Source: a virus
Strand: one strand, 5' to 3'
Virus record (IMG/VR): IMGVR_UViG_3300042545_001591
Span: 1-53,161 of that record
Length of the DNA stretch: 53,161 nt
Part shown: piece after piece, positions 21,938-40,509 of the stretch
Numbering within the stretch: the first letter of the stretch is position 1
Layout of the letters: each line of letters starts with the position of its first letter
Made by a program: the position numbers and the translations under genes
Notes under the pieces: model-generated
Databases searched by the model: none
The model's input: the letters and a program-made list of their open reading frames with translations, nothing else
What the model was told of the DNA's origin: nothing

Positions 21938-22156
21938 ATGCGTGAACAAATAGGCAAAAACCAAAAATCTAGTCCTACTGACTTTTTAAAATCAGATACA
22001 GAATTTGCGCCGACTGCACTTCAACGCGAGCGTTACTCAATCTGCAAGGAATGCCCAGAACTTACGAAAGTTACAAAGCAATGCAAGCAATGTGGTTGTT
22101 TTATGAACTTAAAAGTGAAGCTTGGTCATGCAGTCTGCCCACTAGGTAAGTGGTGA
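21938..22156 (+). CDS. Small zinc-ribbon-like protein
   Basis: A 72-aa protein with ERYSICKECPELTKVTKQCK, QCGCFMNLKVKLGHAVCP and LGKW at the end. Cysteines fall as CxxC, then C-xx-C-x-C, then CP, a layout that can bind zinc. Similar small CKECP...CGCFM..K...CPLGKW proteins are common in phages near tail fibres or glycosyltransferases, with unknown function. GATAAT lies 8 bases before the ATG and no Shine-Dalgarno is obvious, so a leaderless start is possible. The 3' end overlaps the convergent glycosyltransferase by 15 bases, leaving no room for a terminator. Confidence 0.7.
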   Translation: MREQIGKNQKSSPTDFLKSDTEFAPTALQRERYSICKECPELTKVTKQCKQCGCFMNLKVKLGHAVCPLGKW

Positions 22157-23212
22157 TTTCAGCTCGTAGAAACCTTTGCCCCACAAAGTCATAAGGCGAG
22201 TGAAGTACTTTTCATAGAGAAGCGCATTTGTTTCCAAGCCGAACCTATCGACCGCATACTCACGAATGGCCTTGCGGTCCAAGCTCGGTGCCGCAACTGC
22301 TGCGTCAATGAATTCCTGCAATGTCCTGCAGCGAAAGCCGTTGACCCCATGAACTACGTTTTCGGGAAAAGCGCCCCAATCGGTTGTGATAACCGGAGTG
22401 CCACAGGCCATCGCCTCAGCCACAACTAAACCAAAAGGCTCGGTGTAAATAGTTGGCACAAATGAGGCAATTGCCCCACCCATGAGCCTTGCTCGCTCTT
22501 CGGTTCCAACCACCCCAACATACTCTCCGTAAGCAGGCGGAGTTCCCTGTCCAGCGACCACCAGACGCTTCCCAAGGGCCTTACAGACGTCTGCGGCTAT
22601 CTGATAGCCCTTTCGCTCTATAAGGCGTCCTATGAACAAATAGTAGTCATCTGGGGTTTCCCTGAATGGGAAGTCATTGATGTCCACATGGCCCGGAATT
22701 ACGTCGTCATAGAACTGCCCGTCTACGTCATGTGGGTTGGTGACCGCTGCTCCGTAGCAGACATGCATCCATGCGTAGGACTCAAAAACCTTGTATTTGG
22801 CAAAGATGCCACCATAGCCAACCTCAAACTCCACGGTCATATTGTTGGGAAAGGCGTCGGCTACTCCCTTGTGTGCCAGCCCGCCAATAACGCAAATAAA
22901 GTCTTTTGGTTGGATTCTTTTACCTATCTCGGCAATGATGTTCTTATTCATATTCTGCCAATGGGGCAAGGAATAGTCAAAAGAGGCGAGAGTGTAGTGG
23001 TTCCCGTTTAAGGACTGAAGACGCTCTTCTTCGGTGATGCACATAACGTGCTCAGTGCAGGGGGCTTCATTAAACTCCCCGCTGTACAAGAAAACTTCAT
23101 GACTCAAAGACGTCATCATTATTGCAAACTTACGGACATTCTCCGTAAACGCACATGACGTAAATTCTTTTGTCGTATTTGTGTGGGGGAGGCTAATTAG
23201 GTGAAATCTCAT
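22142..23212 (-). CDS. GT-B glycosyltransferase (GT4-like)
   Basis: A 356-aa retaining-type glycosyltransferase. The C-terminal half has the nucleotide-sugar domain: YYLFIGRLIERKGYQIA (about 191-207), RLVVAGQG (216-223) and EPFGLVVAEAMACGTPVI, the E-x7-E motif with Glu258 and Glu266. The N-terminal half would be the acceptor domain (FAIMMTSLSHEVFLYSGEFN). It is the last gene of the minus-strand block, 25 bases beyond the GT-A gene. Acceptor and sugar cannot be read from the sequence. Its setting beside oxygenases and adhesins suggests sugar addition to hydroxylated virion protein or to a surface glycan. Confidence 0.85.
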   Translation of the reverse strand: MRFHLISLPHTNTTKEFTSCAFTENVRKFAIMMTSLSHEVFLYSGEFNEAPCTEHVMCITEEERLQSLNGNHYTLASFDYSLPHWQNMNKNIIAEIGKRIQPKDFICVIGGLAHKGVADAFPNNMTVEFEVGYGGIFAKYKVFESYAWMHVCYGAAVTNPHDVDGQFYDDVIPGHVDINDFPFRETPDDYYLFIGRLIERKGYQIAADVCKALGKRLVVAGQGTPPAYGEYVGVVGTEERARLMGGAIASFVPTIYTEPFGLVVAEAMACGTPVITTDWGAFPENVVHGVNGFRCRTLQEFIDAAVAAPSLDRKAIREYAVDRFGLETNALLYEKYFTRLMTLWGKGFYELKSPLT

Positions 23213-23237
23213 TTATGACCTCGATTAAACATTTCTA

Positions 23238-23924
23238 TCACGGCATTAGAACTGATGATTTGAAATGCCCGACTTTAACCGCAGTGTCAACAACCGCATC
23301 AAAACCTGCATCTTTGGCTCTTTTAAACATTGCCGTATCTTCTGAAGTGACTATTCTCTTCATTACCCTTCCGTCGCTCGTTATGGTTTCTTCTTCTGCG
23401 TCGGCAAAATATGGGTTGTGGATGTTCTCGAAGACGCCCTGCTTGAAGCATACAAACCCAAAGCCGGCAGCATCTATGTTTACGTACTTTACGCTGGTGT
23501 TAAAATCTTCCATCTTTGCAAACCTGTAATCAAATATTGAGGCTTCCGAATCGTTGGCTGTTTCTTCCAAAATCTGCTGAGGGCTCTTCTTCACGACAAC
23601 AGACAGGCTTCCGTCGCCCCTAATTACATAAATTCCACTAGTAATCGTGTGTGGAGATTCAATAAGCGAACAAAAATCAGACACAGACCATTCGATGTCG
23701 CTATCTATCCAGAACATGTGGGTGTAGTCAGGGTGCTCAGTGAGGGCGCGAAATGCCAACTTGTCACGCAGTTGACCAACATGGGCTCCGCTTTCGTGAA
23801 GAAAGCTTAGTTCTATATTGTTTTGCGAACAGTATTTAACCGTGTCAAAAAAAGACCTTACATAACATGGGGAAAATTCTCGGGCAGGAGTGACGATAAC
23901 GACATTCCTATTGCTCTGAATCAT
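23238..23924 (-). CDS. GT-A-fold glycosyltransferase
   Basis: A 228-aa protein with a GT-A look: RNVVIVTPAREFSPCYVRSF at the N-terminus, HVGQLRDKLAFRALTEHPDY, then HMFWIDSDIEW with a DxD-type metal site at Asp74/Asp76, an ITSGIYVIRG segment, and a C-terminal SEDTAMFKRAKDAGFDAVVD followed by VKVGH, whose His is a likely metal ligand. The layout resembles glycosyltransferases found in other phage genomes. The ATG lies inside the end of the upstream oxygenase gene (17-base overlap), so the two are coupled. Together with the GT4-like gene it makes a two-enzyme set that copy B of the cassette lacks. Confidence 0.8.
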   Translation of the reverse strand: MIQSNRNVVIVTPAREFSPCYVRSFFDTVKYCSQNNIELSFLHESGAHVGQLRDKLAFRALTEHPDYTHMFWIDSDIEWSVSDFCSLIESPHTITSGIYVIRGDGSLSVVVKKSPQQILEETANDSEASIFDYRFAKMEDFNTSVKYVNIDAAGFGFVCFKQGVFENIHNPYFADAEEETITSDGRVMKRIVTSEDTAMFKRAKDAGFDAVVDTAVKVGHFKSSVLMP

Positions 23925-24693
23925 CTGTCAAATCTTTGCTTTGGGCTTCCGTCCATGTGAACTCGGTTTTTGGTTCCTCAAACACTTCGTGGTTAATAGT
24001 ATTTACTGGCGTGTCGTCAGTATTTTCCTCAAAGTCCAAACTCGTCGTGACAAAACAGCTAATTATCCACTTGTCCGAAGAATAAGGGACCAATCCCATG
24101 TGTGGGTGAGTCCAACTTGTAGGAAACAAAACAATTTTACCGATTTCCGCATCGACAGAACAATCATGAATTCTAAAACTTGTCCCCCCGCCATCGGTAA
24201 CGGTATTTAGGTAGACGACGACAGCTAAAACTCTTGTGTGGTTTTTGCCGTTTTCGTCCGGCCTTGGATAGTCCCATGGTAAACCGTCGACATGCTCTCT
24301 ATAGAAACCGTCATTTTTAAAGTACCTCTGAATTCTTAATCCAGTAATGTCCAGATTCGGGACAGACCAGAATTGTGGAAACATTTGGATGTAATCATTT
24401 ATGCACGACCATATGCGCGCATAGAGGTACTCACTGACTGCCGCATACTGGTGGTAATACTTGGTGGAATCAACCGTGTATATATTTGGGTCCATCAACC
24501 CAGTGTCCATACAGCGTTTAATGCCTGTATTCACGCCACCTATAGTCGGCCCCTGAGTAAAAAAGCCAACGTTTAAAAAATCTTCCAAAAGGTTAGACAC
24601 TAAAGATTCACATCTTTCTGCATCTAGAGCCTCCTTGTATTCGGCTATATATGAATATTTTCCAAGAGGAAAAGATGCTTTGGTTAATCCCAT
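23908..24693 (-). CDS. 2OG-Fe(II) oxygenase, prolyl 4-hydroxylase-like
   Basis: From ATG 24693 (preceded by AAAGGAAC; a TTG at 24729 is rejected) this encodes 261 aa. LRIQRYFKNDGFYREHVDGL holds the HxD pair His134/Asp136. VVVYLNTVTDGGGTSFRI is the conserved strand, and GKIVLFPTSWTHPHMG holds the distal His (most likely His198), with Lys208 (SDKWIISCFV) for the 2-oxoglutarate carboxylate. This is the P4H-type jelly roll. The family hydroxylates peptidyl proline or lysine, or small molecules. It lies between the dUTPase-like gene and the GT-A gene, which would fit hydroxylation followed by glycosylation. Copy B has no counterpart. Confidence 0.88.
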   Translation of the reverse strand: MGLTKASFPLGKYSYIAEYKEALDAERCESLVSNLLEDFLNVGFFTQGPTIGGVNTGIKRCMDTGLMDPNIYTVDSTKYYHQYAAVSEYLYARIWSCINDYIQMFPQFWSVPNLDITGLRIQRYFKNDGFYREHVDGLPWDYPRPDENGKNHTRVLAVVVYLNTVTDGGGTSFRIHDCSVDAEIGKIVLFPTSWTHPHMGLVPYSSDKWIISCFVTTSLDFEENTDDTPVNTINHEVFEEPKTEFTWTEAQSKDLTDDSEQ

Positions 24694-25463
24694 TTGCGTT
24701 GTTCCTTTCTGTATTTGCCCCTGCGCCAACTAGGGAGAAGAGGAATTGGTCCACCAAAACCTCTTTCGTAAATAAGCTTAAATACGTTCTCGTCACCAAC
24801 GTGCATTTTTGAAACATTATCAGAACGTTTAAAAAAAGTCATTTGGGCAATAGGGGTCCCCTGAGGAATGTAGAACTCTTTGTCCGTCAACACGTTTAAA
24901 ATTATATTGACCGTATGGTAATAATCCGTGTTTATTACTCCCGGGATTACGTCAAACTCGGGCCTTGGATTAAGAAGCGAACCAGTCAGAATGCTTGAAT
25001 ATCCTTTTGGCGTCATAAAGCAAAACGGATTCCCAAGCTTTATGTATTGCCCTTCGCCAACAGATGGGTTTCTTCTTTCCGTAAACGGACAGTCCCCTGT
25101 TTGTTTTCTTTCAAAATGCTGTATTGAGCCCATAATTTTTATGTTTTTTCTGTCGACATTAAACTCAGACTGAATGTCAATACCATTGGGATGAGGCCTT
25201 ACTCGTAGGTCGGCCCACAATGGGATGGTCACACCGTTATGCATCAGGTCTTGTCCGCCAGGGCAATACCTATAACCGTCCTCTAGAGGGGTTTTGGTCG
25301 TCCAGTCGTCTTTGGAGAACTTGTTCATGTAGGGCATAATATCTTCATCGCCTAACAACCTATTGTCTTCTGCGGTTATTAATATTTCCCCTGGCTTCAA
25401 CTTGGGTAACTGGTTTACCCTGGATACGCCATCTAGATAAACAACATTTTTAGAAGATTTCAT
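24684..25463 (-). CDS. Cassette protein with dUTPase-like motifs (copy A), function unknown
   Basis: A 259-aa protein from ATG 25463 (a TTG at 25481 is an alternative). It is homologous to 34655-35449: both have KPG...NR near the start, a Cys followed by GVTIP.W (here NGVTIPLWADLRVR), GDCP/GECP, NP..F.T...S and FKR. Residues 174-183 (PGVINTDYYH) and 202-207 (GTPIAQ) look like dUTPase motif 3 (G-I-D-x-D-Y-R-G) and the later G-x-x-IAQ strand. The catalytic Asp is replaced by Asn, so a dUTPase reaction is unlikely. It sits next to a halogenase in both cassettes, so a partner or substrate-binding role is my inference. Its stop overlaps the oxygenase start. Confidence 0.7.
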   Translation of the reverse strand: MKSSKNVVYLDGVSRVNQLPKLKPGEILITAEDNRLLGDEDIMPYMNKFSKDDWTTKTPLEDGYRYCPGGQDLMHNGVTIPLWADLRVRPHPNGIDIQSEFNVDRKNIKIMGSIQHFERKQTGDCPFTERRNPSVGEGQYIKLGNPFCFMTPKGYSSILTGSLLNPRPEFDVIPGVINTDYYHTVNIILNVLTDKEFYIPQGTPIAQMTFFKRSDNVSKMHVGDENVFKLIYERGFGGPIPLLPSWRRGKYRKEQRKWD

Positions 25464-26886
25464 GGTGGTATACGGTTTCAAGGTTCATGTTTGATTGTCT
25501 TATTTCGGAGAGACTAGATGAAGCATAGTGCCGATTCTGATAATAATCAAGAGACCGAGAACATGATTCCTTTGTTATCAAACCCTGCCCTTGCGCCACA
25601 TGCCAGAAGTGCGCTATCTGAAAAAGTTCATATCCACTCTGAGGGACGTCATTGGTGGAAGGGGGCCTTTCTGACCACAACTCTAAGAGCTCGGAAAGCA
25701 AAGGGGACCTTGGGGCACTTGCTGCGTCTTTCCAGAAACTGGTATCCCTTCTGTCCGATATGTAATGCATGCTCACCATGGCTATGAGGTTCTCGTGAAA
25801 ACTTTCCATAATCGAATTGTACTTTCGGGAAAGAGACGTAGAGCCGGGTTTGAAAAATGGAATAAAACTAGATAGCGCCTTAGCCTGCTGAATTGCCGTA
25901 GAAATACTCGTAGCCTCAAGTGGCTCCATAAAAGAACTGCTCAACCCAATGGCAACACAGTTGTTTACCCACTGCTTACTGGTGTACCCAGGATTAAACT
26001 TTATAACTCTTGGCTTATCGAGAACATGACCAGTGACTTGTTCTATCTCTTTTATTGCTTGCTCTTCGTCTAGATGACCAGATGAGAAGACGTAACCATT
26101 CCCACGTCTTTCCTGGGTAGGAATCTCCCACATCCAACCAGACGACATGGCGATAGCCCTGGTGTACTGCCTTATCAGACCGTTCGGGTCAGGTTTTGTC
26201 GGGAAAGGTATAGCCGTATCCGTAAGTAAATATCGTGATGCATCCACCCATTTGGCTTCGTCAAAATTCTTAATTAGGAACTTTGAAAACCCCGAAGCGT
26301 CTATCCAGAAATCAGAATAATATGTTTCTGAATTTGACGCAACCGACTGTATGTACCCGGTTTCATCAATCAAAGAAGAGACTAAGTCATCTATGAAAAT
26401 CTTTATATTTTTCCTGGAACAAATTTTTTGAAGATAATGATTCAGCTTAAATGTGTCAAAATGATATTGATTTGTGTTTCTATGGATATGTTCTGATTTG
26501 ACTACTTTTGTTTCAATAAACCCAGGATGAGTTATTGTGTTGGTGAGCAGCTTGCCTTGCTCATGAATGTATTCATACAGAGGTATGTTTTCATTTTTAA
26601 TAAAATAACCACTAATACTGTGAAAATAATCAGGAGTGTGATTGGTCCATTTCTCAAACCGAATACCAAGTTTGTGCGTAGCGGCAGTTTCCCTGACCAT
26701 CTCATCAATGTCTATTCCTGCTATTTCAACAAAGCTATGCCAATGCTCCGTACTACCTTCGCCAACTCCAATTATGCCAATAGTTTTTGACTCAATAATT
26801 GAAACGTCAAGCAAGGGAAGCTTGCTTTTTAGAACTATCGCCGCAACAAGACCAGCAGTCCCTGCCCCTACAACCATAACCTTCAT
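25450..26886 (-). CDS. Flavin-dependent halogenase (tryptophan halogenase family), copy A
   Basis: A 478-aa enzyme. VVGAGTAG (5-12) is the FAD GxGxxG; GVGEGSTEHW (40-49) is typical; Lys72 in THKLGIRFEKW aligns with the catalytic Lys (PrnA Lys79) that carries the hypohalous intermediate. GWMWEIP (250-256) is the family WxWxIP motif, and SSFMEPLEATSI (318-329) holds the conserved active-site Glu. The enzyme needs reduced FAD, O2 and halide; no flavin reductase is seen here, so the host would supply FADH2. It is slightly shorter than the usual ~510-540 aa. A viral member, VirX1 of a marine cyanophage, has been shown to halogenate small aromatics with preference for iodide. The substrate here is unknown. 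Confidence 0.93.
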   Translation of the reverse strand: MKVMVVGAGTAGLVAAIVLKSKLPLLDVSIIESKTIGIIGVGEGSTEHWHSFVEIAGIDIDEMVRETAATHKLGIRFEKWTNHTPDYFHSISGYFIKNENIPLYEYIHEQGKLLTNTITHPGFIETKVVKSEHIHRNTNQYHFDTFKLNHYLQKICSRKNIKIFIDDLVSSLIDETGYIQSVASNSETYYSDFWIDASGFSKFLIKNFDEAKWVDASRYLLTDTAIPFPTKPDPNGLIRQYTRAIAMSSGWMWEIPTQERRGNGYVFSSGHLDEEQAIKEIEQVTGHVLDKPRVIKFNPGYTSKQWVNNCVAIGLSSSFMEPLEATSISTAIQQAKALSSFIPFFKPGSTSLSRKYNSIMESFHENLIAMVSMHYISDRRDTSFWKDAASAPRSPLLSELLELWSERPPSTNDVPQSGYELFQIAHFWHVAQGQGLITKESCSRSLDYYQNRHYASSSLSEIRQSNMNLETVYHHEIF

Positions 26887-26889
26887 GAG

Positions 26890-27516
26890 CTACCTAAGCC
26901 ATGTTACGAAGGCATACTTGATGCCAAAATTGTTTTCCTCTACGGGGTGAGCTGTATGTCTATACAAATAGTTTGACGGAAACAAAACCATAGAACCAGC
27001 AGAGGGAGAAACCTTTATGCCGAAATAATCAAACTCCAATTCGCCTCCGTTGAAGTCGTCATTAAACCACCCGACACAGCTAAGAATGCGACCATTTTCC
27101 GAGCCGTAATCACAATGAGAACTGTATTCTCCACCGCTTGGGTATTTTAATACTCTGTATCCTTCGTCGGTAGACAGCTCAAGGCTGTACTTATCACGAT
27201 AATGATAAACCGCTGCGTCTATGTTCTTGAATATTTTTTTCCAGAGTACTGCTGCCGGTTTCATTCTTGGAATATTTTCTATTTTGTTAGCTTGCAGGGG
27301 GTTCAACTCCATTTGTACAGACATTCTGTACGATGAAATTTTACCGTTGTCAGTTTCTGAATTTTCCCACATCAAGTATGGCCAGTCTTCTTTTGACTCA
27401 GATTCAATAAGTTCTATGATGTTTTCAGGTGAAAATATGTTTTTGTACATAATTACGCCAGGGGCCAACTCTACTATTTCTGAGCTTTCTATAATTTCGT
27501 TAACAGACATCATCAT
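26890..27516 (-). CDS. 2OG-Fe(II) oxygenase of the cassette, copy A
   Basis: A 208-aa protein. KYPSGGEYSSHCDYG gives the HxD pair His134/Asp136; GGELEF (158-162 region) is the strand typical of this family; SMVLFPSNYLYRHTAHPVEE gives the distal His190, and Lys200 follows for 2-oxoglutarate. It therefore has a complete iron site. Copy B (36963-37544) has the same motifs and length class, and both sit directly upstream of a halogenase. Three ATGs in a row mark the start; it overlaps the upstream 147-aa gene by 17 bases. The substrate is unknown; peptidyl hydroxylation of the co-encoded adhesin is a hypothesis. Confidence 0.87.
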   Translation of the reverse strand: MMMSVNEIIESSEIVELAPGVIMYKNIFSPENIIELIESESKEDWPYLMWENSETDNGKISSYRMSVQMELNPLQANKIENIPRMKPAAVLWKKIFKNIDAAVYHYRDKYSLELSTDEGYRVLKYPSGGEYSSHCDYGSENGRILSCVGWFNDDFNGGELEFDYFGIKVSPSAGSMVLFPSNYLYRHTAHPVEENNFGIKYAFVTWLR

Positions 27517-27943
27517 TTACCGTAAAATCAAAAGTGTGAATAATCTTATCTTTATACCAAACGCAAATAGCACAATCTCCCGGCGCACCAAAATTAAGCC
27601 CAAAATGAATAGAATGCCTATTTATTTTTTTTACATCTAGAAATCTGTGCCCATTTGGCTCTCCCACAATGTAGAGAAAAAGACTAATTTTTACATCATC
27701 ATCAAATACGAGAAATTCGTTTTTGTAATCAATCCGAATTAATTGATTTACCTTGACAGGAGAATGAGAAAACTTTATTGAATGCTCTGTTGGGATAGAA
27801 ATCGGACGAGGGGTGTCTCTGTCAAAAATCAAATCTTTGGTTCTCTCGTTGTCGCCGATAAGTATGGGGGCGACGTGGAGTCTAGATAATTCCTCTGCTG
27901 TGGGAAGCATTTCTTCTGTTGGACAAAAAATTACTGTATCCAT
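27500..27943 (-). CDS. Unknown cassette protein (copy A, ~147 aa)
   Basis: From ATG 27943 (a TTG at 27955 is possible) this encodes 147 aa. I do not recognise a family. The N-terminus is short and polar (MDTVIFCPTEEMLPTAEELS); the rest alternates beta-type segments (QLIRIDYKNEFLVFDDDVKI, LFLYIVGEPNGHRFLD, IHFGLNFGAPGDCAICVWY, KIIHTFDFTVND). It holds the same slot as the 138-aa protein of copy B (37541-37957), which has a similar beta-rich look and SLRF/SIHF-like and WKY/WYK-like segments, but identity is too low for me to claim homology. It could be a small jelly-roll or chaperone for the neighbouring oxygenase. Confidence 0.6.
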   Translation of the reverse strand: MDTVIFCPTEEMLPTAEELSRLHVAPILIGDNERTKDLIFDRDTPRPISIPTEHSIKFSHSPVKVNQLIRIDYKNEFLVFDDDVKISLFLYIVGEPNGHRFLDVKKINRHSIHFGLNFGAPGDCAICVWYKDKIIHTFDFTVNDDVC

Positions 27944-27969
27944 AAATAGACACAATAGCAGTTAATTCT

Positions 27970-28218
27970 TTATTCCGCCTGAAGTCGAGCAAGGCTGGCC
28001 CGTGTAGTCTTTATTCCTACAACCAACATTCGGAAATGAGTTGAATACATATAAGACTCGCCGTCTTCAGGAACTTCAAAAGTATCCATGTCTACGGTGA
28101 GAGGGTCTATCCCTGACTGTATGCAAGTTGTGAAAAAATTAGAGTACGCGGTCTCTAGCGCTTTGGTAAGGAGATTTACTGTTTCTTCTGTCGTTATTTC
28201 GTCTCTTAGTTCTGGCAT
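27970..28218 (-). CDS. Unknown small helical cassette protein (copy A)
   Basis: An 82-aa protein with a good ribosome site (GAGGAAAA) before its ATG. It is largely helical (TVNLLTKALETAYSNFFTTC, TRASLARLQAE) with GIDPLTVDMDTFEVPEDGES in the middle. The 75-aa protein of copy B (37954-38181) has the same pattern: helix, NVDPETFDEEVGF, helix ending in L...KVKITEL. Both follow a long Gly-rich adhesin, so an adhesin-specific assembly factor is possible (inference). Confidence 0.6.
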   Translation of the reverse strand: MPELRDEITTEETVNLLTKALETAYSNFFTTCIQSGIDPLTVDMDTFEVPEDGESYMYSTHFRMLVVGIKTTRASLARLQAE

Positions 28219-28227
28219 TTTTCCTCT

Positions 28228-30357
28228 TTAAGCGTTAATTATTATTTTTGTACTAGAAGACAAGGATTGAGTAAGCCCCCATGAATCAGTAACAACAATT
28301 ATACCGCCTTCTAGGCCGGTAGAACCAGCGTTACCCATGGTCCCCGCTAGACCATTGGTGCCAGCATTGGGTGCTCCATTGGTTCCGGGGTTCCCAGGGT
28401 TGCCTGCACCACCAACCGTTCCTGCGTTACCGGCAGCTCCAGGATTTCCTGCTGCGCCTCCGTGTCCAGTTCCGTTATTCCCATGATTACCTGCTACGCC
28501 GGCGTTGCCGGCAGTTCCATGGTTCCCTGCTGTTCCTGCTGCGCCGTTATGCCCATGACCATTTGTACCAGAATTACCGGCTGCGCCACCATAACTGGTC
28601 GCAACAGCATTCTGCCCGTAGTGGGTGTTATGGTTATGCCCTGCACCGTGTCCGTTGAATTCATTATGTCCTAAACCTATGAAAAAGTGGTTGACGTTTG
28701 CTGGGTTTGCGCCACGAGGCCATGTTCTGTTTGCGGGTGCACCAGTATAGTGAAAAGCATGTTCGGTCGAGTTTCTCCATGAATGTCTAGGAAAATGTGC
28801 ACTGTTTGATTCGTTAGCAGGGCGACCACCGGAACCACCAAATGTTCTCATATGACTATAACCTGAGACATGGAACGCATGGGCGTTGGAAGCAGCATTG
28901 GGGTTTCCTGCCTGCGAGACATACTGGTAATAAGTGTCATTTACTCCCGCATTGCCAGCTGCACCTGCAGTGGCCCCAGTTCCGTTAGCGGCCCCCGTTC
29001 CTGCTGTTCCATTTGTTCCTGCGTTGGCTACTCCAGGGTTTGCTCCGCCTGCGGTGGCACCGCTTCCGCCGTGGCCTCCAGTTCCTACGTTTCCGGGGTT
29101 TCCTGCATTGCCTGGGACGAGAGTTCCCACAACTCCGGCCCCACCGGACGTAGCACCAGTCCCTGCAATCCCAGGATTACCTGACGCACCTGCAGTTCCA
29201 TGAGAACCAACCCCGCCAGGTTGTCCAACATTAACAACAGAGCCAGAGCCAGAAATATATTTAGCCACAATCAAAACAACGGGTCCTCCTCTTCCTCCCG
29301 TGCCACTTACTCCAGGGTTTCCTGCGTTGCCTGCGGCTCCAACAGTTCCAGCGTTGCCCGCTAAACCTGCCGCACCAAAATGTCCTGCGTTGGGCGCACC
29401 ACTGTTTCCTGGGTTACCTGCATTGCCTGCGTTTCCTGCCGTACCGGCATTTCCTGCTGCACCCGCGTGTCCAGTTCCGCCATGTCCTGTTCCGTTGGTT
29501 CCTGGATTGCCATGGTTTCCTGCAGTGCCTGCGTTCCCTGCTGCACCATTGTTGCCGTGGTTTCCGGCGTGCCCATAACCATAAAGACCATAAGAATTGT
29601 GTGTGTTGCCGTGGTTCGAACCAGACGGAATGTGTATTCCACCAGCAGTAGCTCCCGTTCCTGCCGCTCCTGGGTTGGCCCCACCAGCACCTCCTGCGGT
29701 AGCTCCACTTCCTCCGTGCCCACCAGTACCGTTACTGCCACCTGTTCCTGGGTTTCCTGCATTTGCTACTCCAGCTCCTCCAGCACCACCAAGGTTTGCT
29801 CCAGTTCCAGCAATTCCAGGATTGCCTCCCGTGCCAGGATTTCCTGCAACCCCTGGAACTAGGGTTCCTGGATTTCCTAGCGTGCCACTGGTTGCACCAC
29901 TTCCATCTGCACCCTTGTCGCCACCAGAAAGCACACGAATCGAACCAGCATTATCTACAAAATAACCACGAATTGATTTTTCCAAATCATTCAGTGTTGC
30001 CAGGTCGATTGGATTAGCTGAAGTCTGACTCAAGCTGTAAGTAACAATAGAAGCAGCCCCACCAGCCACTGTTCCTGACGGGATTAAGGACGTATGCGAA
30101 AGAGTGGCTCCGATGGTTCCGTTGTTGGTTAAGGTCCCTTTAACAAAGACTCGAAAGCCGTTTGTGATTACAGTGCAACCGCTGTTGACCGTTAGGTTTT
30201 CGTAGTACATGTCTCTGGACAAAACAGTTGGAGTTCCAGTGTTTGAAACAATTACAGTTCCGTCTGTCCCTTGTCCATACACAGAGTCGTTTCCAAGTCT
30301 CTGTGTGTACTCTTTAGATTCCGTACCAGGTCTAAACCTGACAACTCCAATTCCCAT
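28228..30357 (-). CDS. Long glycine-rich adhesin (cassette copy A)
   Basis: A 709-aa protein. The N-terminal ~110 residues (RLGNDSVYGQGTDGTVIVSN, DMYYENLTVNSGCTVITNGF, RVFVKGTLTNNGTIG) form a beta domain shared with three other proteins here. From about 145 to 690 the chain is mostly Gly-X-Y-like repeats rich in Asn, Thr, Ala and Pro (GNPGTGGNPGIAG, GNAGTAGNAGNAGNPG), interrupted at about 365-375 by GGPVVLIVAKYISG and at about 470-585 by a Tyr/Trp/His-rich insert (YYQYVSQAG, HFPRHSWRNSTEHAFHY). Such chains may fold as polyglycine-II bundles, as in the S16 gp38 adhesin, or as collagen. GNPG units place Pro before Gly, the site class of collagen prolyl hydroxylases. It is a likely receptor binder. 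Confidence 0.8.
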   Translation of the reverse strand: MGIGVVRFRPGTESKEYTQRLGNDSVYGQGTDGTVIVSNTGTPTVLSRDMYYENLTVNSGCTVITNGFRVFVKGTLTNNGTIGATLSHTSLIPSGTVAGGAASIVTYSLSQTSANPIDLATLNDLEKSIRGYFVDNAGSIRVLSGGDKGADGSGATSGTLGNPGTLVPGVAGNPGTGGNPGIAGTGANLGGAGGAGVANAGNPGTGGSNGTGGHGGSGATAGGAGGANPGAAGTGATAGGIHIPSGSNHGNTHNSYGLYGYGHAGNHGNNGAAGNAGTAGNHGNPGTNGTGHGGTGHAGAAGNAGTAGNAGNAGNPGNSGAPNAGHFGAAGLAGNAGTVGAAGNAGNPGVSGTGGRGGPVVLIVAKYISGSGSVVNVGQPGGVGSHGTAGASGNPGIAGTGATSGGAGVVGTLVPGNAGNPGNVGTGGHGGSGATAGGANPGVANAGTNGTAGTGAANGTGATAGAAGNAGVNDTYYQYVSQAGNPNAASNAHAFHVSGYSHMRTFGGSGGRPANESNSAHFPRHSWRNSTEHAFHYTGAPANRTWPRGANPANVNHFFIGLGHNEFNGHGAGHNHNTHYGQNAVATSYGGAAGNSGTNGHGHNGAAGTAGNHGTAGNAGVAGNHGNNGTGHGGAAGNPGAAGNAGTVGGAGNPGNPGTNGAPNAGTNGLAGTMGNAGSTGLEGGIIVVTDSWGLTQSLSSSTKIIINA
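28330..29905 (-). repeat. Glycine-rich triplet repeat region of adhesin A
   Basis: Degenerate 9-base units encode Gly-Asn-Ala/Pro, Gly-Thr-Ala and Gly-His-Gly through most of the gene. The reverse strand reads as Pro/Ala/Val-rich frames that are artefacts. The unit sequence varies in third codon positions, but short exact repeats occur, so length change by recombination is likely. Confidence 0.8.
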
Positions 30358-34654: not shown

Positions 34655-35449
34655 TTACTTCCTTTTGAGTATTTTTTTAATTATACCTTTTTGTTCAGAC
34701 TGCTTATCTAAAGCATTATCAACAATTACCCTATTGCGACGATAAGGACCAGCAGTCCCATCGCTTGGGGCAACGTGCCCTGTCCCAAACCCTGTTGTAG
34801 CAACGTATTTAAAGTAAGACTCGTCGTTGAAGATTATTTCCCCAAAGTCGGAGTTGCGCTTAAACGGAACTACCTGACACATCGGTGTTCCGTATTTTAT
34901 GGAAAACGGCCTATCACCAATAGGGTTAATAACCATGTTTGCTAAGTGGTAGAAATCCGTATGAACGATTGACGGAACGAGCGTGTAGTCCTCGTTTGGT
35001 TCCCAGTACGGTGGGAGAATCATCGACGACCAGCCTGGGGCTGTTTCAAAGCGCCACGGATTAATTATCTTTGGGTATTGGCCCGTTGCTACTTTTCTGA
35101 CAGCAGTCATTGGGCATTCACCGGTGGAGTGAGCAGAAAATCCTGATATTGAATTTATCCCAGCTTGTGGTGCAAAATCGTCCCCCGCCGTTTCCCATGT
35201 CTCGCCATTTGGGTCTAGACGGAATCTAAAATTTGTCCACATAGGAATAGTGACGCCAGCAGTAAGAAAATCTATTGTTCCAGCGCATTTGCGAATGGAG
35301 CCCTGATGCTTACCAATTTTCTTAAACCACATAGGAGGATTCTGTACTGTGTTAACAAATGGAGGCATCTCCATCAATCTGTTATCCATCGGTGTGAATC
35401 TTATTTGTCCAGGTTTTACTGGCGGCATCTTGGTCATTATTGGTTCCAT
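34655..35449 (-). CDS. Cassette protein with dUTPase-like motifs (copy B), function unknown
   Basis: A 264-aa homologue of 24684-25463. Shared blocks are VKPGQIRFTPMDNRL, CAGTIDFLTAGVTIPMW, GECPMT, INPWRFETAPGWSSM, and VPSIVHTDFYHLANMVINP. The last aligns with dUTPase motif 3 but has His where the catalytic Asp should be; YGTPMCQVVPFKR aligns with the later G..IAQ strand. Loss of that Asp in both copies, in different ways, argues for a binding or scaffold role. The ATG overlaps the halogenase end by 13 bases; an internal ATG at 35434 is an alternative start. The constant halogenase neighbour is the main clue to its job. Confidence 0.7.
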   Translation of the reverse strand: MEPIMTKMPPVKPGQIRFTPMDNRLMEMPPFVNTVQNPPMWFKKIGKHQGSIRKCAGTIDFLTAGVTIPMWTNFRFRLDPNGETWETAGDDFAPQAGINSISGFSAHSTGECPMTAVRKVATGQYPKIINPWRFETAPGWSSMILPPYWEPNEDYTLVPSIVHTDFYHLANMVINPIGDRPFSIKYGTPMCQVVPFKRNSDFGEIIFNDESYFKYVATTGFGTGHVAPSDGTAGPYRRNRVIVDNALDKQSEQKGIIKKILKRK

Positions 35450-36945
35450 TCTTTGTCAATCAACACAATTTCCCGCAAAGCAGTAGCGTGGTCGACTTGT
35501 TCGCCACTATTCCGATTTGCTTTGTATTCTGCAATTTTTTTCTCAACGCTTTGCCGTATCCCAAGCCTATTGAGGGCAGTGGTGGCCGCATCTGGATTGA
35601 TGGCGTTTTGACCTTGAGCAACATGCCACAAGTGTGCCGACAAAAACATCTCGCCGTTTAATGCACTAAAATCAAATCTGGTTGGTGGACGCTCCGCCCA
35701 TAACTCAATCATCTCCTGCAATTCTTCATTGAGTGGCGTTACTGACATTTCCCGCCAAAATGGAGTGTCCTGCCTATCCGAATAATAATGGAGACGAACC
35801 ATCGTAAGAATATTGCGCATCATTATTTTCATGCTGGCGTTAAAGTGTTTCTGAGATGCTGTGTGCCCAGGTTGATACGAAGCAAGATAGGGGACAATTT
35901 GTTTTACTTGCTGAATTGTTGAACCTATGCTAGAGGCCTCTAATGGCTCCACAAAAGAAGAAGCCAGCCCGATTGCACAACAGTTCTTTACCCATGTGTT
36001 CTTTAGATAGCCCGCGTCAAAATTAATAACACGATGGGCTTCAATCTTGTAGCCGGACATCTCTTCGGCTTCACGTACCGCTTCTTCTTCGGTTATAAAT
36101 TTAGACGAAAATACGTATCCGTTTCCACGCCGTTCTTGAGTGGGGAGTTCCCAGAGCCACCCGGAAGAGGCAGCACGAGCACGTGTGTAGGGACGAATTC
36201 TTCCGTTGGGGTCAGATTCCGTAGGAAACGCAATTGCCGTATCGCACAAAAGATGGTCACTGAAAGAAGACCAATCATCTGCCCCAAGTTTTTTCATCAA
36301 TATTCTGCTAAAGCCACTAGCGTCAAACCAAAAGTCTGACGCAATGGTTTCATTTGATTTGGTTACTACGGATAGTATATTTCCGTTTTCGCTATCAAGA
36401 TTAATAGAATCTACTTCTGCCTCAATAAACTCAATCTGTCTCTTGAACGCCAGAGTAATTAGATAATTATTTAGCTTATGCGTATCAAAATGGTATTGAT
36501 TTGTAGACCGGTGCATTCCCGCTTTGCTGATTTTGTCTTTTACCAATGCAACGTTCGTAATCTGTGGGGTCAAAAGCTTCCCCTCTTCCAGATATTGCAT
36601 ATAAGTTGCGTGTGCTCCAAAAGCATAAATATCATCTACGTCACCTACGCTATGAAAATAGTCAGGATTTTTTGTTGTCCAGTTTTCAAATCTAATTCCG
36701 TACTTATGCGTACCAGCTGTCTCGACAAGCATTTCTTCAATAGGGATGTCACATAGGTCAGCAAACTGACGCCAGTGTTCCGTGCTTCCCTCACCTACAC
36801 CAATAATCCCAATTTTTGAAGACGAGATAACTTTTATCCCAGCTATGGGAAAGGCTTTGCGCAAAATTAAAGAAGCAAGCAGTCCTGCTGTTCCAGACCC
36901 GACGATGGTAATAATAAATGGTTTTTTTTCTTGTTTGTAATCCAT
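35437..36945 (-). CDS. Flavin-dependent halogenase (tryptophan halogenase family), copy B
   Basis: A 502-aa enzyme homologous to copy A. IVGSGTAG (14-21) binds FAD; GVGEGSTEHW (49-58) and THKYGIRFENW (79-89) match copy A with catalytic Lys81. The WxWxIP motif appears as GWLWELP (262-268), with Leu for Ile. CAIGLASSFVEPLEASSI holds the active-site Glu. All key residues are therefore kept in both copies. The N-terminus is longer by nine residues. Identity between copies is clearly partial, so the duplication is not recent, or the copies came in separately. Substrate may differ between copies, matching the different adhesins. Confidence 0.93.
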   Translation of the reverse strand: MDYKQEKKPFIITIVGSGTAGLLASLILRKAFPIAGIKVISSSKIGIIGVGEGSTEHWRQFADLCDIPIEEMLVETAGTHKYGIRFENWTTKNPDYFHSVGDVDDIYAFGAHATYMQYLEEGKLLTPQITNVALVKDKISKAGMHRSTNQYHFDTHKLNNYLITLAFKRQIEFIEAEVDSINLDSENGNILSVVTKSNETIASDFWFDASGFSRILMKKLGADDWSSFSDHLLCDTAIAFPTESDPNGRIRPYTRARAASSGWLWELPTQERRGNGYVFSSKFITEEEAVREAEEMSGYKIEAHRVINFDAGYLKNTWVKNCCAIGLASSFVEPLEASSIGSTIQQVKQIVPYLASYQPGHTASQKHFNASMKIMMRNILTMVRLHYYSDRQDTPFWREMSVTPLNEELQEMIELWAERPPTRFDFSALNGEMFLSAHLWHVAQGQNAINPDAATTALNRLGIRQSVEKKIAEYKANRNSGEQVDHATALREIVLIDKEWNQ

Positions 36946-36962
36946 AACTGAATCTTACTCTA

Positions 36963-37544
36963 CTAGCAAAACCATGTCACTAGAGAGTGCTTAACGCCTT
37001 CAAGGACGGGATGGGCAACATGCAAGTAGGGGAAATTTGAAGGAAACATAAGAACCGAACCTGTTTTCAGCTTGACGGTCACATCAAAGGTGGGAAACTC
37101 TAATTCTCCGCCACTTTCGGCTTCCCCAAGGGATGCGACAATACTAAAAACACGCCTATTGTCTCTCCAGTGGTCATAGTGAGCACGATATTCTCCTCCT
37201 TGGTAGTATTTGAGGATTGCAAATTCTTCAGGGATGGCGTCCTCTATCATGAATTCTTGACGGTAATCTTCGGCGACCGCCATGCAGGGTAAAAAAATGT
37301 TTTTTTGGTAGAAATCAGATAATTCAGTTTTTTCATACGGAGGGAGCAAAGACGTAAGAACACAATTAATAGAAGTTCTAGTATCGGTCGTTGACCCTGC
37401 TCCGGTTTTACCGTAGTCCCATTCGAGGCCGGACCACTCGTTCGCAGTTTCTTCTTCTACTTTAGCTAAGAACTCAATCGCTACTGATTCAGGGAACACG
37501 TCTTCATACAGGGATACGCACGGTGCTATTTTTGTATTTTTCAT
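36963..37544 (-). CDS. 2OG-Fe(II) oxygenase of the cassette, copy B
   Basis: A 193-aa protein. LKYYQGGEYRAHYDHWRDNR contains His122/Asp124; SGGELEFPTFDV is the family strand; SVLMFPSNFPYLHVAHPV contains distal His178, and Lys185 (EGVKHSLVTW) follows for 2-oxoglutarate. The C-terminal half aligns well with copy A; the N-terminal half is divergent, which may reflect a different substrate. Its ATG overlaps the upstream stop as ATGA, so it is coupled to the 138-aa protein. The halogenase follows after 17 bases. Confidence 0.87.
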   Translation of the reverse strand: MKNTKIAPCVSLYEDVFPESVAIEFLAKVEEETANEWSGLEWDYGKTGAGSTTDTRTSINCVLTSLLPPYEKTELSDFYQKNIFLPCMAVAEDYRQEFMIEDAIPEEFAILKYYQGGEYRAHYDHWRDNRRVFSIVASLGEAESGGELEFPTFDVTVKLKTGSVLMFPSNFPYLHVAHPVLEGVKHSLVTWFC

Positions 37545-37957
37545 ATAACCCTAAATTCCCCAGAACAATAGTCTTCTGTTTCAGAAACAGTAATTTTATA
37601 CTTCCAATTTCCCAGACTAACGTATCTTGAACGAAAACGCAAGCTATGAACCTGACGAACGGAAGGTTTTGTAATTACCGTTTCCCCGGTTTCTGAAGTA
37701 GCAATCAATCGAGCATCGCGTCCAAAAAAAACAAATTCGTCTGTCAGGTCAATGCAGAAAACGTATCCAGACTCAACGGTAGGCGGTATTTCTACCACTT
37801 TTTTGTATGGGACACTAACGATGCAAATATCTGTGTATTTGTTGTCTTCCCCAACCTGTATGGACAGCATTGTTTTTTTTGCCAACTCTATGGCCTTTAA
37901 GGGGATTTCATTGTTTTCTAAAAGTAGGGCTACTGGTACATGAATAAACCTTTTCAC
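37541..37957 (-). CDS. Unknown cassette protein (copy B, 138 aa)
   Basis: The GTG start overlaps the upstream stop (GTGA). The sequence starts KRFIHVPVALLLENNEIPLK, followed by beta-type segments (GYVFCIDLTDEFVFFGRDAR, HSLRFRSRYVSLGNWKYKIT). No family is recognised. It occupies the same slot as the 147-aa protein of copy A between the ~80-aa protein and the oxygenase. Tight coupling on both sides suggests that it works with the oxygenase, perhaps as substrate adaptor (inference). Confidence 0.6.
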   Translation of the reverse strand: MKRFIHVPVALLLENNEIPLKAIELAKKTMLSIQVGEDNKYTDICIVSVPYKKVVEIPPTVESGYVFCIDLTDEFVFFGRDARLIATSETGETVITKPSVRQVHSLRFRSRYVSLGNWKYKITVSETEDYCSGEFRVI

Positions 37958-38181
37958 GACAGTTCGGTAATTTTTACTTTTACCCGATTGAGAGCATTAA
38001 CTAACTCTTGGATACGAATGTACTCACCAGTGAAATTTGTTCCAGTAAAGCCAACTTCTTCATCAAAAGTTTCTGGGTCAACATTCAAACGAACAAGAAG
38101 CGTATACAGCTCTTTTTCTATTCCGGATTTTGAACTTTGACAAAGTTCAATTTTTTCTGCTTGCGTTAAGTTGAATTCCAT
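37954..38181 (-). CDS. Unknown small helical cassette protein (copy B)
   Basis: A 75-aa protein (FNLTQAEKIELCQSSKSGIE, LYTLLVRLNVDPETFDEEVG, IQELVNALNRVKVKITELS). Two helices flank a DPETF segment that resembles GIDPLTVDMDTF in the 82-aa protein of copy A. GGAGAAATC lies before its ATG. It directly follows the His-rich adhesin gene, so an assembly factor for that adhesin is plausible but not shown. Confidence 0.6.
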   Translation of the reverse strand: MEFNLTQAEKIELCQSSKSGIEKELYTLLVRLNVDPETFDEEVGFTGTNFTGEYIRIQELVNALNRVKVKITELS

Positions 38182-38189
38182 GATTTCTC

Positions 38190-39800
38190 CTACGAATTAA
38201 TTAATACGTACGCTGCACCCGCGGAGGCAACATAGTTGTCTGAGTCGACCGTTAGTCCTGCGCGAGTATCGTAAGTGATTGTGTTTGCTATTGAGTCCGT
38301 GACGATAAGGATAGCACCGCCGCCACCGGCCCCACCACGTTTTCCATTTGGACCAGCAATCGCTGGCCCTCCTGCTCCTCCTGCCCCTCCTGCTCCGCCT
38401 GGATATACTGTTGGCGCAACATGTGTTGAAACGCTATTGGGGTGATGAGAATGTCTTGCGGTAGTCCCTGAGGGTCCTGCATAAAAAACGGCCCCAACGC
38501 CAACTCCGTTATTGTGATGAGGGTGGTTATTGCCAAAGTGAATATGGTTGTCACTCCCTCCGGCATTACCTATCCAATCCATGTGGTGATTATGACCCGT
38601 GGTCGCGCCGTGTGAATGGCCACCATGGCTGTTTGGTTTTTGATGATAGTGAGGAAATGGATAATGATGAGTTATCTGAAAATAAGCGTGCCACCAGTGC
38701 GGTTCCCAGTGGTGTGCTCCACCGTGGGGTCCATCGTTGTGGGGGGAATGGTGATGGCCATTGTGGTGGTGATGAGGGGTCGCGTGGTGATGCGGGGTTC
38801 CTCTATGAAAGTGGTGAGGGGTCGAGTGGGCACCATGAGCCCCATGCTTGGCGTCGGTAAGGGCATGAACATGCTCTTGAACGTTTTCGTGTTGCTGGAC
38901 GTGCTGCCGAACGCCATGCTTATGCATGTTTGAGTGATTAGTGTAATAGTGATGATGGTCAGGGTTATGGGTTGCGGGATGCGCAACGTTAACGTTCGGA
39001 TTGGGGTGTGAGTAAGCAGGGGCGGGTGTTCCCGTACCACCCGCAGTACCCGCAGTACCTGCGCCACCCGCCGTTCCTGCGACACCCGACATTCCCAGTG
39101 AAATTATTTTCCCTGTTCCTACAACCGTTTTAGCTACTACACAAACAACTGCTCCACCTGCTCCGCCAATTCCACTGACTCCGGAAGTTCCAGGCGTCCC
39201 AGCATTTCCAGTTCCACCAGTCCCCCCTCTGCCTCCGACTGCACCAACAGTGTGTGCGTTTGGAGCGTACGAACCAGCCGCTCCTGCTGTGCCTGGACTT
39301 CCTGGAGACGGTGCGGCTCCTGCGGTTGGAGCACCAGCAGTACCTCCAACTCCTCCACCTATGTTTTGAAAACCTGACGGGGTTGGAACTAAGCCACCAG
39401 CCATCGCATCGATTGACTTAAATAAATACAGCGGGAGCGGATTGCCGCCTGGGTTTGTTCCGCCTCCGCCCACTCCACCAGCGTTGTAGGTAATAGGAAC
39501 GGTGTTTGTTCCCACAGTAGTTTTAGTTGTTACTGCGGTCGGCTCTCCAACTACACCTGCAGTAACAGAACCGGAACCAATATAGCCATTTAGCGTTAGT
39601 GTGTTTTTAACAAAAACTCTGTAGCCGTTTGTCTTTAACAAAACTCCCGAGTTTACAGTGAGGTTGTTGTAGTACATATCGCTCGTTATGGAAGTATCTG
39701 ACGAAACAGTAACGTTTCCATCAGTACCCTGACCATAGATGTCGTCGTTACCTAGTCTTTGCGAAAAGCTTTGAGTCCTAAACTTCTCTATGCCAGCCAT
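38190..39800 (-). CDS. Histidine- and glycine-rich adhesin (cassette copy B)
   Basis: A 536-aa protein. The N-terminal ~75 residues (RLGNDDIYGQGTDGNVTVSS, DMYYNNLTVNSGVLLKTNGY, RVFVKNTLTLNGYIG) match copy A. A Gly-rich region follows to about 260. Residues about 265-431 carry about 50 His (HHHYYTNHSNMHKHG, TPHHHATPHHHHNGHHHSPH, HHWEPHWWHAYF), then a Gly-rich C-terminus with GGGAILIVTDS as in copy A. Many HxH pairs could bind iron, zinc or nickel, as known for the HxH irons of the T4 gp37 tip. Three Trp in the His-rich region and one near 408 are candidate halogenase targets (inference). It has no signal peptide. Confidence 0.8.
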   Translation of the reverse strand: MAGIEKFRTQSFSQRLGNDDIYGQGTDGNVTVSSDTSITSDMYYNNLTVNSGVLLKTNGYRVFVKNTLTLNGYIGSGSVTAGVVGEPTAVTTKTTVGTNTVPITYNAGGVGGGGTNPGGNPLPLYLFKSIDAMAGGLVPTPSGFQNIGGGVGGTAGAPTAGAAPSPGSPGTAGAAGSYAPNAHTVGAVGGRGGTGGTGNAGTPGTSGVSGIGGAGGAVVCVVAKTVVGTGKIISLGMSGVAGTAGGAGTAGTAGGTGTPAPAYSHPNPNVNVAHPATHNPDHHHYYTNHSNMHKHGVRQHVQQHENVQEHVHALTDAKHGAHGAHSTPHHFHRGTPHHHATPHHHHNGHHHSPHNDGPHGGAHHWEPHWWHAYFQITHHYPFPHYHQKPNSHGGHSHGATTGHNHHMDWIGNAGGSDNHIHFGNNHPHHNNGVGVGAVFYAGPSGTTARHSHHPNSVSTHVAPTVYPGGAGGAGGAGGPAIAGPNGKRGGAGGGGAILIVTDSIANTITYDTRAGLTVDSDNYVASAGAAYVLINS

Positions 39801-39801
39801 T

Positions 39802-40509
39802 TTAAACCAACTGCATGTAATTTACAGTGCCAGGATTCTGTCCAGTTACATCTGTTGTGACGTTTGCAGGAAGACCGGCTGCCGACGAAACCACAAGGAC
39901 AACTCCCCCGCCAGCAGGGGCAGTTGCTTTTGCTGAAATCTCGGCCGTGCCGCTTAGTGGACCCGAGATATACCTTGCGGCGACTATTACTATTCCGCCA
40001 CCTTTTTGTCCAGCGCCACCGGCTCCACCACGAAGATATGTTGGGCCACCCGAAGCAGTAAGAGAATATCCTAGAACCGCATTTCTTGGTTGCTGGAAAT
40101 ACTTAGCTCCTCCCAAGGAGTCTAATGGGGCAGTTGCCGTATAGCCAGTTGCTGAACCACCAAGAGAATGAGCAACAGCCAAGGAAGCTACCTGTCCCTG
40201 GAGTATTGAGCCACTGTCCGAATACCCAGTTATGTATCCAATACGGGAAGATGTTCCTAGTGTGAGTATGTTTTTGACAAACAAACGATATCCGTTTGGT
40301 TTTAAATGAATGTTGTCATTAATCGTTAGGTTGAACAGATACAAGTCCGCAACCATGGAATAAACGTTTGATGCCGGAATCATCCCCAAAACAGTGGATG
40401 AGCCATTAAGGGTCGCTGAACCATCAGCCCCAGAACCGTAAACAGAATCGGCAGCATCAATGAATTGCCCAAAAGCATTCAAGGCTGGATAGCGGGCCAC
40501 GCCAGCCAT
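39802..40509 (-). CDS. Virion beta protein with Gly-rich end (copy B, paralogue of 30360-31094)
   Basis: A 235-aa protein closely similar to the copy A protein: MAGVARYPALNAFGQFIDAA, DSVYGSGADGSATLNG, DLYLFNLTINDNIHLKPNGY, ASGGPTYLRGGAGGAGQKGG, IVIVAARYISG and the end NYMQLV. This is the best-conserved pair of the two cassettes, which fits a structural base that must dock to the same virion site. It ends one base before the His-rich adhesin, whose N-terminal domain is a divergent copy of its own. Confidence 0.7.
   Translation of the reverse strand: MAGVARYPALNAFGQFIDAADSVYGSGADGSATLNGSSTVLGMIPASNVYSMVADLYLFNLTINDNIHLKPNGYRLFVKNILTLGTSSRIGYITGYSDSGSILQGQVASLAVAHSLGGSATGYTATAPLDSLGGAKYFQQPRNAVLGYSLTASGGPTYLRGGAGGAGQKGGGIVIVAARYISGPLSGTAEISAKATAPAGGGVVLVVSSAAGLPANVTTDVTGQNPGTVNYMQLV

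Follow-up and report, generated by a model that had tools for sequence, protein, structure and literature searches.

In this study, we found that P0001, a probable tail-tip adhesin of an uncultured phage, carries an extremely histidine-rich insert that is retained among its relatives, and that its gene is linked to genes for two enzymes, a flavin-dependent halogenase and an oxygenase of the 2OG-Fe(II) type. The window, that is, the whole stretch of DNA analysed, is an entire IMG/VR record of 53,161 bases and is probably a fragment. The adhesin and its upstream neighbour, all on the minus strand, are as follows.

38190..39800, minus strand: P0001, glycine-rich adhesin-like protein with a histidine-rich insert, 536 aa; an ORF whose full-length homologues in viral contigs number 57 distinct, 43 of them non-redundant
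39021..39800, minus strand: residues 1-260, an N-terminal beta scaffold with glycine-rich motifs; AlphaFold2 (AF2) pLDDT mostly >80, invariant Gly columns
38397..39020, minus strand: histidine-rich insert, residues 261-468, placed by alignment boundaries; 54 His in 208 residues, pLDDT mostly 30-60
38190..38396, minus strand: residues 469-536, a glycine-rich C-terminal segment with the closing beta strands; AF2 pLDDT 80-95
39802..40509, minus strand: upstream protein, 235 aa, whose N-terminal domain matches that of the adhesin at 36.7% identity over 109 aa; lacks the histidine-rich insert; conserved upstream

Composition and conservation of the histidine-rich insert

A sequence-only reading of this DNA had claimed about 50 histidines in about 165 residues at 38505-39005, which corresponds to residues 266-432 of the minus-strand ORF, and the count held: there are 49 His in these 167 residues and 50 in the best 165-residue window. 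Against the 1.38% His averaged over the window's remaining 38 plausible genes, the binomial log10 p for this excess is about -49, and the next most histidine-rich gene, a paralogue at 28228-30357, reaches only 18 His per 165 residues. The stretch contains one HHHH and five HHH runs, and the insert as delimited by alignment extends beyond it. The same reading also saw many HxH pairs, beyond ordinary composition. The pairs are present (14), but their excess is not, as 13.7 are expected when the same residues are shuffled (z 0.1); the HxH pairs thus follow from composition.

Scans of viral contigs yielded 22 relatives and then 334, of which 80 were fetched; these gave the 57 distinct full-length proteins, 43 of them below 90% identity. 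Among these 43, which were chosen as long proteins dense in His and Gly, the insert is always kept, and the proteins hold 17-67 His each. Relatives of the N-terminal domain with little histidine also exist (L024, L025, L026, L179 and L183). Across 48 aligned homologues, histidine makes up 25.7% of the insert versus 0.7% of the scaffold, and within the insert the His-consensus columns are 69% conserved versus 51% for other columns. Near-fixed motifs such as HHPHNDGPHGG and GGHDGH mark the main subfamily; in distant subfamilies the sequence of the insert differs while its histidine-richness stays. Cysteine, often as CC, is added in 9 of the 48 inserts, and no Trp is strictly conserved in the insert among the aligned homologues. 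A scan of viral contigs with the insert alone gave no match outside this adhesin family. The bacterial genome matches listed, from a query that was not insert-specific, included no homologue of the insert and shared only the N-terminal beta stretch.

The insert contains short repeats, for example TPHHHATPHHHH, and its length varies widely among relatives (about 60-245 residues), as might be expected if it had arisen by low-complexity drift and had no function. This explanation is extremely improbable, given that histidine is present in every full-length relative compared and that the His columns are more conserved than the others. In addition, CAT and CAC differ at 49.1% of aligned His pairs, compared with 49.4% expected for random codons, in proteins that are 30-70% identical. 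Such complete randomisation of the codons while the residue is kept indicates that selection acts on the protein, and drift as a full explanation is refuted. A second alternative is that the insert acts as a pH switch, in which protonation of histidine would alter the charge and trigger receptor binding or release. Its extreme histidine content and the scarcity of acidic and basic residues would suit such a switch; however, the invariant single His columns and the accompanying Cys point to site-specific ligands rather than bulk charge, and we consider it unlikely.

Two other sequence features were seen in this survey. A TSDMYYNNL-type N-terminal beta stretch also occurs in MAG contigs of Acidobacteria, Eremiobacterota, Chloroflexi and Micrarchaeota (L156-L159). 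A tail-collar-like protein upstream of the adhesin in L009/L010 (660-1625) has repeated HSHS-type motifs, with 20 His in 321 aa.

Predicted structure and comparison with known phage fibres

P0001 matched no Pfam or NCBIfam family, and its N-terminus alone gave a weak match to a PHROG of unknown function. Neither a cultured-phage homologue (tblastn queried with P0001 whole or with its N-terminus) nor a solved-structure homologue (phmmer against PDB, to E 10) was found. In the AlphaFold2 model, made with 48 sequences, the beta and glycine-rich scaffold is confident (pLDDT mostly >80) and most of the insert is unfolded (30-60), with 162 of the 536 residues at pLDDT <50; another homologue, lying closer to the consensus of the family, gave the same picture of a confident scaffold and an unfolded insert. 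Two glycine-rich excursions (residues 147-217 and 235-495) are predicted, at sequence level, to sit between confident beta strands, and the insert interrupts the second. Foldseek matched no PDB chain to this 536-residue model, 162 residues of which lie below pLDDT 50. In the viral library it returned collagen-like and uncharacterised glycine-rich proteins, with uninformative query TM-scores of 0.14-0.25 for E up to 0.001.

This layout resembles that of S16 gp38, in which excursions from a beta-helix pack into a polyglycine sandwich whose ends bear variable loops proposed to bind the receptor (PMC6851490). As in S16-type gp38 (PDB 6F45), the P0001 model appears to have two glycine-rich excursions between strands of a beta scaffold. 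It differs in that gp38 has short loops whereas the P0001 insert is about 60-245 residues long among relatives and one-quarter His, in that phmmer (E 10) and Foldseek matched P0001 to nothing in PDB, and in that the gp37-cap helices were not identified. Given the Foldseek result, the resemblance to gp38 is a likeness of layout and not an established membership. By its sequence, P0001 appears to belong among the glycine-rich phage adhesins, with an insert carried by no isolate, PDB entry or named family searched. It is probably a tail-tip adhesin, and would be located at the tip of the fibre.

The sequence-only reading had compared the insert with the HxH iron sites of T4 gp37. Sites of this kind occur in T4 gp37 and in pyocin fibres and have been proposed in R22Y (PMC6116203; PMC11705849), and P0001 is likewise a histidine-bearing, probable phage fibre protein in which metal is likely. 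On this analogy, the 14 HxH motifs would form an iron column in a trimeric shaft, serving mechanical stability or mimicry of a siderophore-receptor ligand (Trojan Horse). The analogy is not supported, because HxH is not enriched in P0001 and because the glycine-rich scaffold looks like a gp38-type tip rather than an intertwined trimeric HxH shaft.

The nearest relatives of the tail sheath also speak against this analogy. The closest relatives of the sheath (1122-2639) are myophages of Gordonia and Arthrobacter, at about 37%, and the nearest relatives of sheath and terminase together are Gordonia/Arthrobacter phages and methanogen phages (37-44%). The hosts of actinophages are not known to have TonB-type outer-membrane receptors. 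With actinophages among the sheath and terminase relatives, an outer-membrane siderophore receptor would not fit such hosts, and mimicry of this kind would be doubtful should the host be Gram-positive. Altogether we regard an HxH iron column as very unlikely. A structural gene of the fibre cluster is nearest to cyanophages (about 45%), and with a sheath nearest to actinophages the genome is a mosaic. No photosystem gene (psbA) was found in 15 records, many of them fragments; a search for T4 gp23 was silent, as was its control.

What remains of the earlier reading is a conserved metal-ligand-rich surface, which is supported on the probable adhesin by the conservation of His, the Cys in 9 of 48 inserts and the lack of a predicted apo fold, while the T4 gp37-type iron column is not. 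That the insert stays unfolded when predicted without a ligand would fit metal-dependent folding, and also disorder. With hardly any hydrophobic core and roughly one residue in four a histidine, the insert most likely depends on divalent metal to fold, and we infer that it probably does bind metal. The best explanation as a whole, to which we give slightly less than an even chance, is a gp38-like tip adhesin with a metal-folded histidine loop that is modified by enzymes. P0001 would be a tail-fibre tip adhesin of the S16 gp38-class build, a beta-helix with projecting glycine-rich excursions. The insert would take the place of the short variable loops that end the second excursion and form the host-facing surface, folding around numerous divalent ions (Zn, Fe or Ni) in each chain.

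The oxygenase-halogenase cassette

Directly downstream of the adhesin gene lie five genes.

37954..38181, minus strand: s75, small conserved cassette gene, 75 aa; same position in most relatives, without family match
37541..37957, minus strand: p138, conserved cassette gene, 138 aa; recognised by synteny, without Pfam, PHROG or NCBIfam match
36963..37544, minus strand: 2OG-Fe(II) oxygenase (PF13640, Pfam E 3e-11) with HxD..H intact; in 15/15 records
35437..36945, minus strand: flavin-dependent Trp-type halogenase (PF04820, Pfam E 1e-100, with PDB match), relative of RebH, PrnA and VirX1; in 15/15 records
34655..35449, minus strand: conserved gene of 264 aa closing the cassette; recognised by synteny, with a paralogue at 24684-25481 (34% identity)

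This cassette had no place in the sequence-only reading, and we rate it as more telling than the histidine content.

Both enzymes match the profiles and motifs of their families. The halogenase matches the PF04820 profile with 338 bits (cut-off 21) and aligns to RebH. Its catalytic Lys81 and Glu333/336 are near-invariant among 38 homologues, all of which carry GxGxxG and 35 of which carry WxWx[ILVM]P. The HxD..H motif of the oxygenase is intact in 49 of 49 homologues.

The order adhesin, s75, p138, oxygenase, halogenase, 264-aa gene was found in nearly all relatives with enough downstream sequence. All relatives with at least 1 kb downstream have the oxygenase, except L104, and all with at least 2.5 kb have the halogenase; L016 and L067, with about 2 kb downstream, show no halogenase within that stretch, and the record holding L016 does have one. 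Both enzymes were present in all 15 records tested, with exactly one halogenase in 13 and two in the window and its near-identical record. As the window has two cassettes, this amounts to one halogenase per adhesin. L178 and L184 have the enzymes on the opposite side of the adhesin, showing that the adjacency survives rearrangement. As for the histidine-poor relatives, L024, L025 and L026 have no halogenase anywhere in their records; the locus of L183 shows none, and that of L179 shows an oxygenase match but no halogenase.

The second cassette of the window, from 28228 to 24684, is diverged (33-47% identity) and complete apart from s75.

28228..30357, minus strand: second Gly/His-rich adhesin-like paralogue, 709 aa, 4.4% His; 44% identity in the N-terminal part
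27500..27955, minus strand: p138 counterpart, 151 aa; best match of the p138-position genes in L017/L018/L021/L023
26890..27516, minus strand: 2OG-Fe(II) oxygenase, PF13640 E 1.6e-13; 33% to 36963-37544
25450..26886, minus strand: halogenase, PF04820 E 9e-99; 47% to 35437-36945
24684..25481, minus strand: counterpart of the 264-aa gene, 265 aa, with a weak dUTPase-like match; 34% to 34655-35449

The paralogue at 34655-35449 gave no dUTPase match. The region 22142-30357 comprises the second cassette and, after it, one more 2OG oxygenase, a gene of 228 aa and a GT4 glycosyltransferase.

Halogenases beside glycine-rich genes in cultured phages

A comparable arrangement exists in cultured phages. 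The window halogenase is of the same PF04820 family as VirX1 (PDB 6QGM), RebH and PrnA, and scores nearer to RebH/PrnA than to VirX1. Cyanophage Syn10 encodes VirX1 itself, as CPUG_00131 matches PDB 6QGM over all 530 residues. At this locus (L112, HQ634191 105128-124573), VirX1 and a second halogenase lie one gene behind glycine-rich ORFs. These are the only three such ORFs in about 167 kb covered of the 177-kb genome, and two of the glycine-rich proteins near VirX1 have histidine-bearing loops. On the opposite side of the Syn10 halogenases is a run of oxygenases: PF13759/PF13640 is matched three times above cut-off and several times more weakly, and JmjC_2 (PF08007), a family that includes protein His and Arg hydroxylases, once. 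In the reservoir isolate S-SRM01, as in the window, a halogenase lies in a fibre locus beside a glycine-rich adhesin, here flanked by tail-fibre genes on one side and an annotated adhesin tip (L167, 9482-10570) on the other. The S-SRM01 loop, CWGGGECGRRQVCNWWGNCWWEASQW in a glycine-rich scaffold, differs from that of P0001 in being rich in Trp and Cys and in lacking a histidine-rich stretch. Sf-CH11 has prolyl-hydroxylase-like, 2OG and halogenase genes between two glycine-rich proteins. No glycine-rich adhesin adjoins the halogenase of P-SSM2.

Cyanophage halogenases and 2OG oxygenases have been read as metabolic genes (PMC10452541; PMC2984593), and a 2021 review lists no native pathway for VirX1 and describes its large open active site (PMC8407142). 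It could be that the insert is a conserved metal-binding adhesin loop and that the two enzyme genes are auxiliary metabolic ones whose products act on small metabolites of the host, adjacent by chance or through shared late expression. The published reading and the P-SSM2 locus favour this, but it has to account for one halogenase per adhesin over 15 records, a whole cassette duplicated in the window, an adjacency kept in L178/L184 despite the changed order, and its recurrence in Syn10 and S-SRM01; we think it rather unlikely. The linkage could also be the inherited neighbourhood of one phage lineage, given that the structural genes around it are common to the relatives. Duplication of the cassette, its rearrangement and the examples from cultured phages make a merely inherited neighbourhood less likely.

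In the best explanation given above, the cassette oxygenase and halogenase would hydroxylate and halogenate residues of the adhesin, or of a fibre partner, before virion release, and modification of one or the other by these enzymes is a serious possibility, though short of an even one. A more specific proposal, which we advance tentatively, is that aquatic phages possess a virion-maturation cassette, whose 2OG oxygenase and flavin halogenase would act on the glycine-rich tail adhesin of the phage itself, adding hydroxyl groups and halogen. The histidine loop would then be a metal-loaded surface for host contact and the native substrate of VirX1 such an adhesin of Syn10.

In the open-access literature searched, we found no report of a halogenated phage receptor-binding protein or of a linkage between adhesin and halogenase/oxygenase genes, subscription journals lying mostly outside the search. 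The linkage is the part of this work likely to surprise specialists. Phage halogenases and 2OG oxygenases are currently classed as auxiliary metabolic genes. If these enzymes do act on tail adhesins, the question of their substrates would become testable on a cultured phage, and the product would be a halogenated phage receptor-binding protein. A metal-loaded adhesin that is one-quarter histidine would, if true, represent an extreme case in the debate on metals in phage tails.
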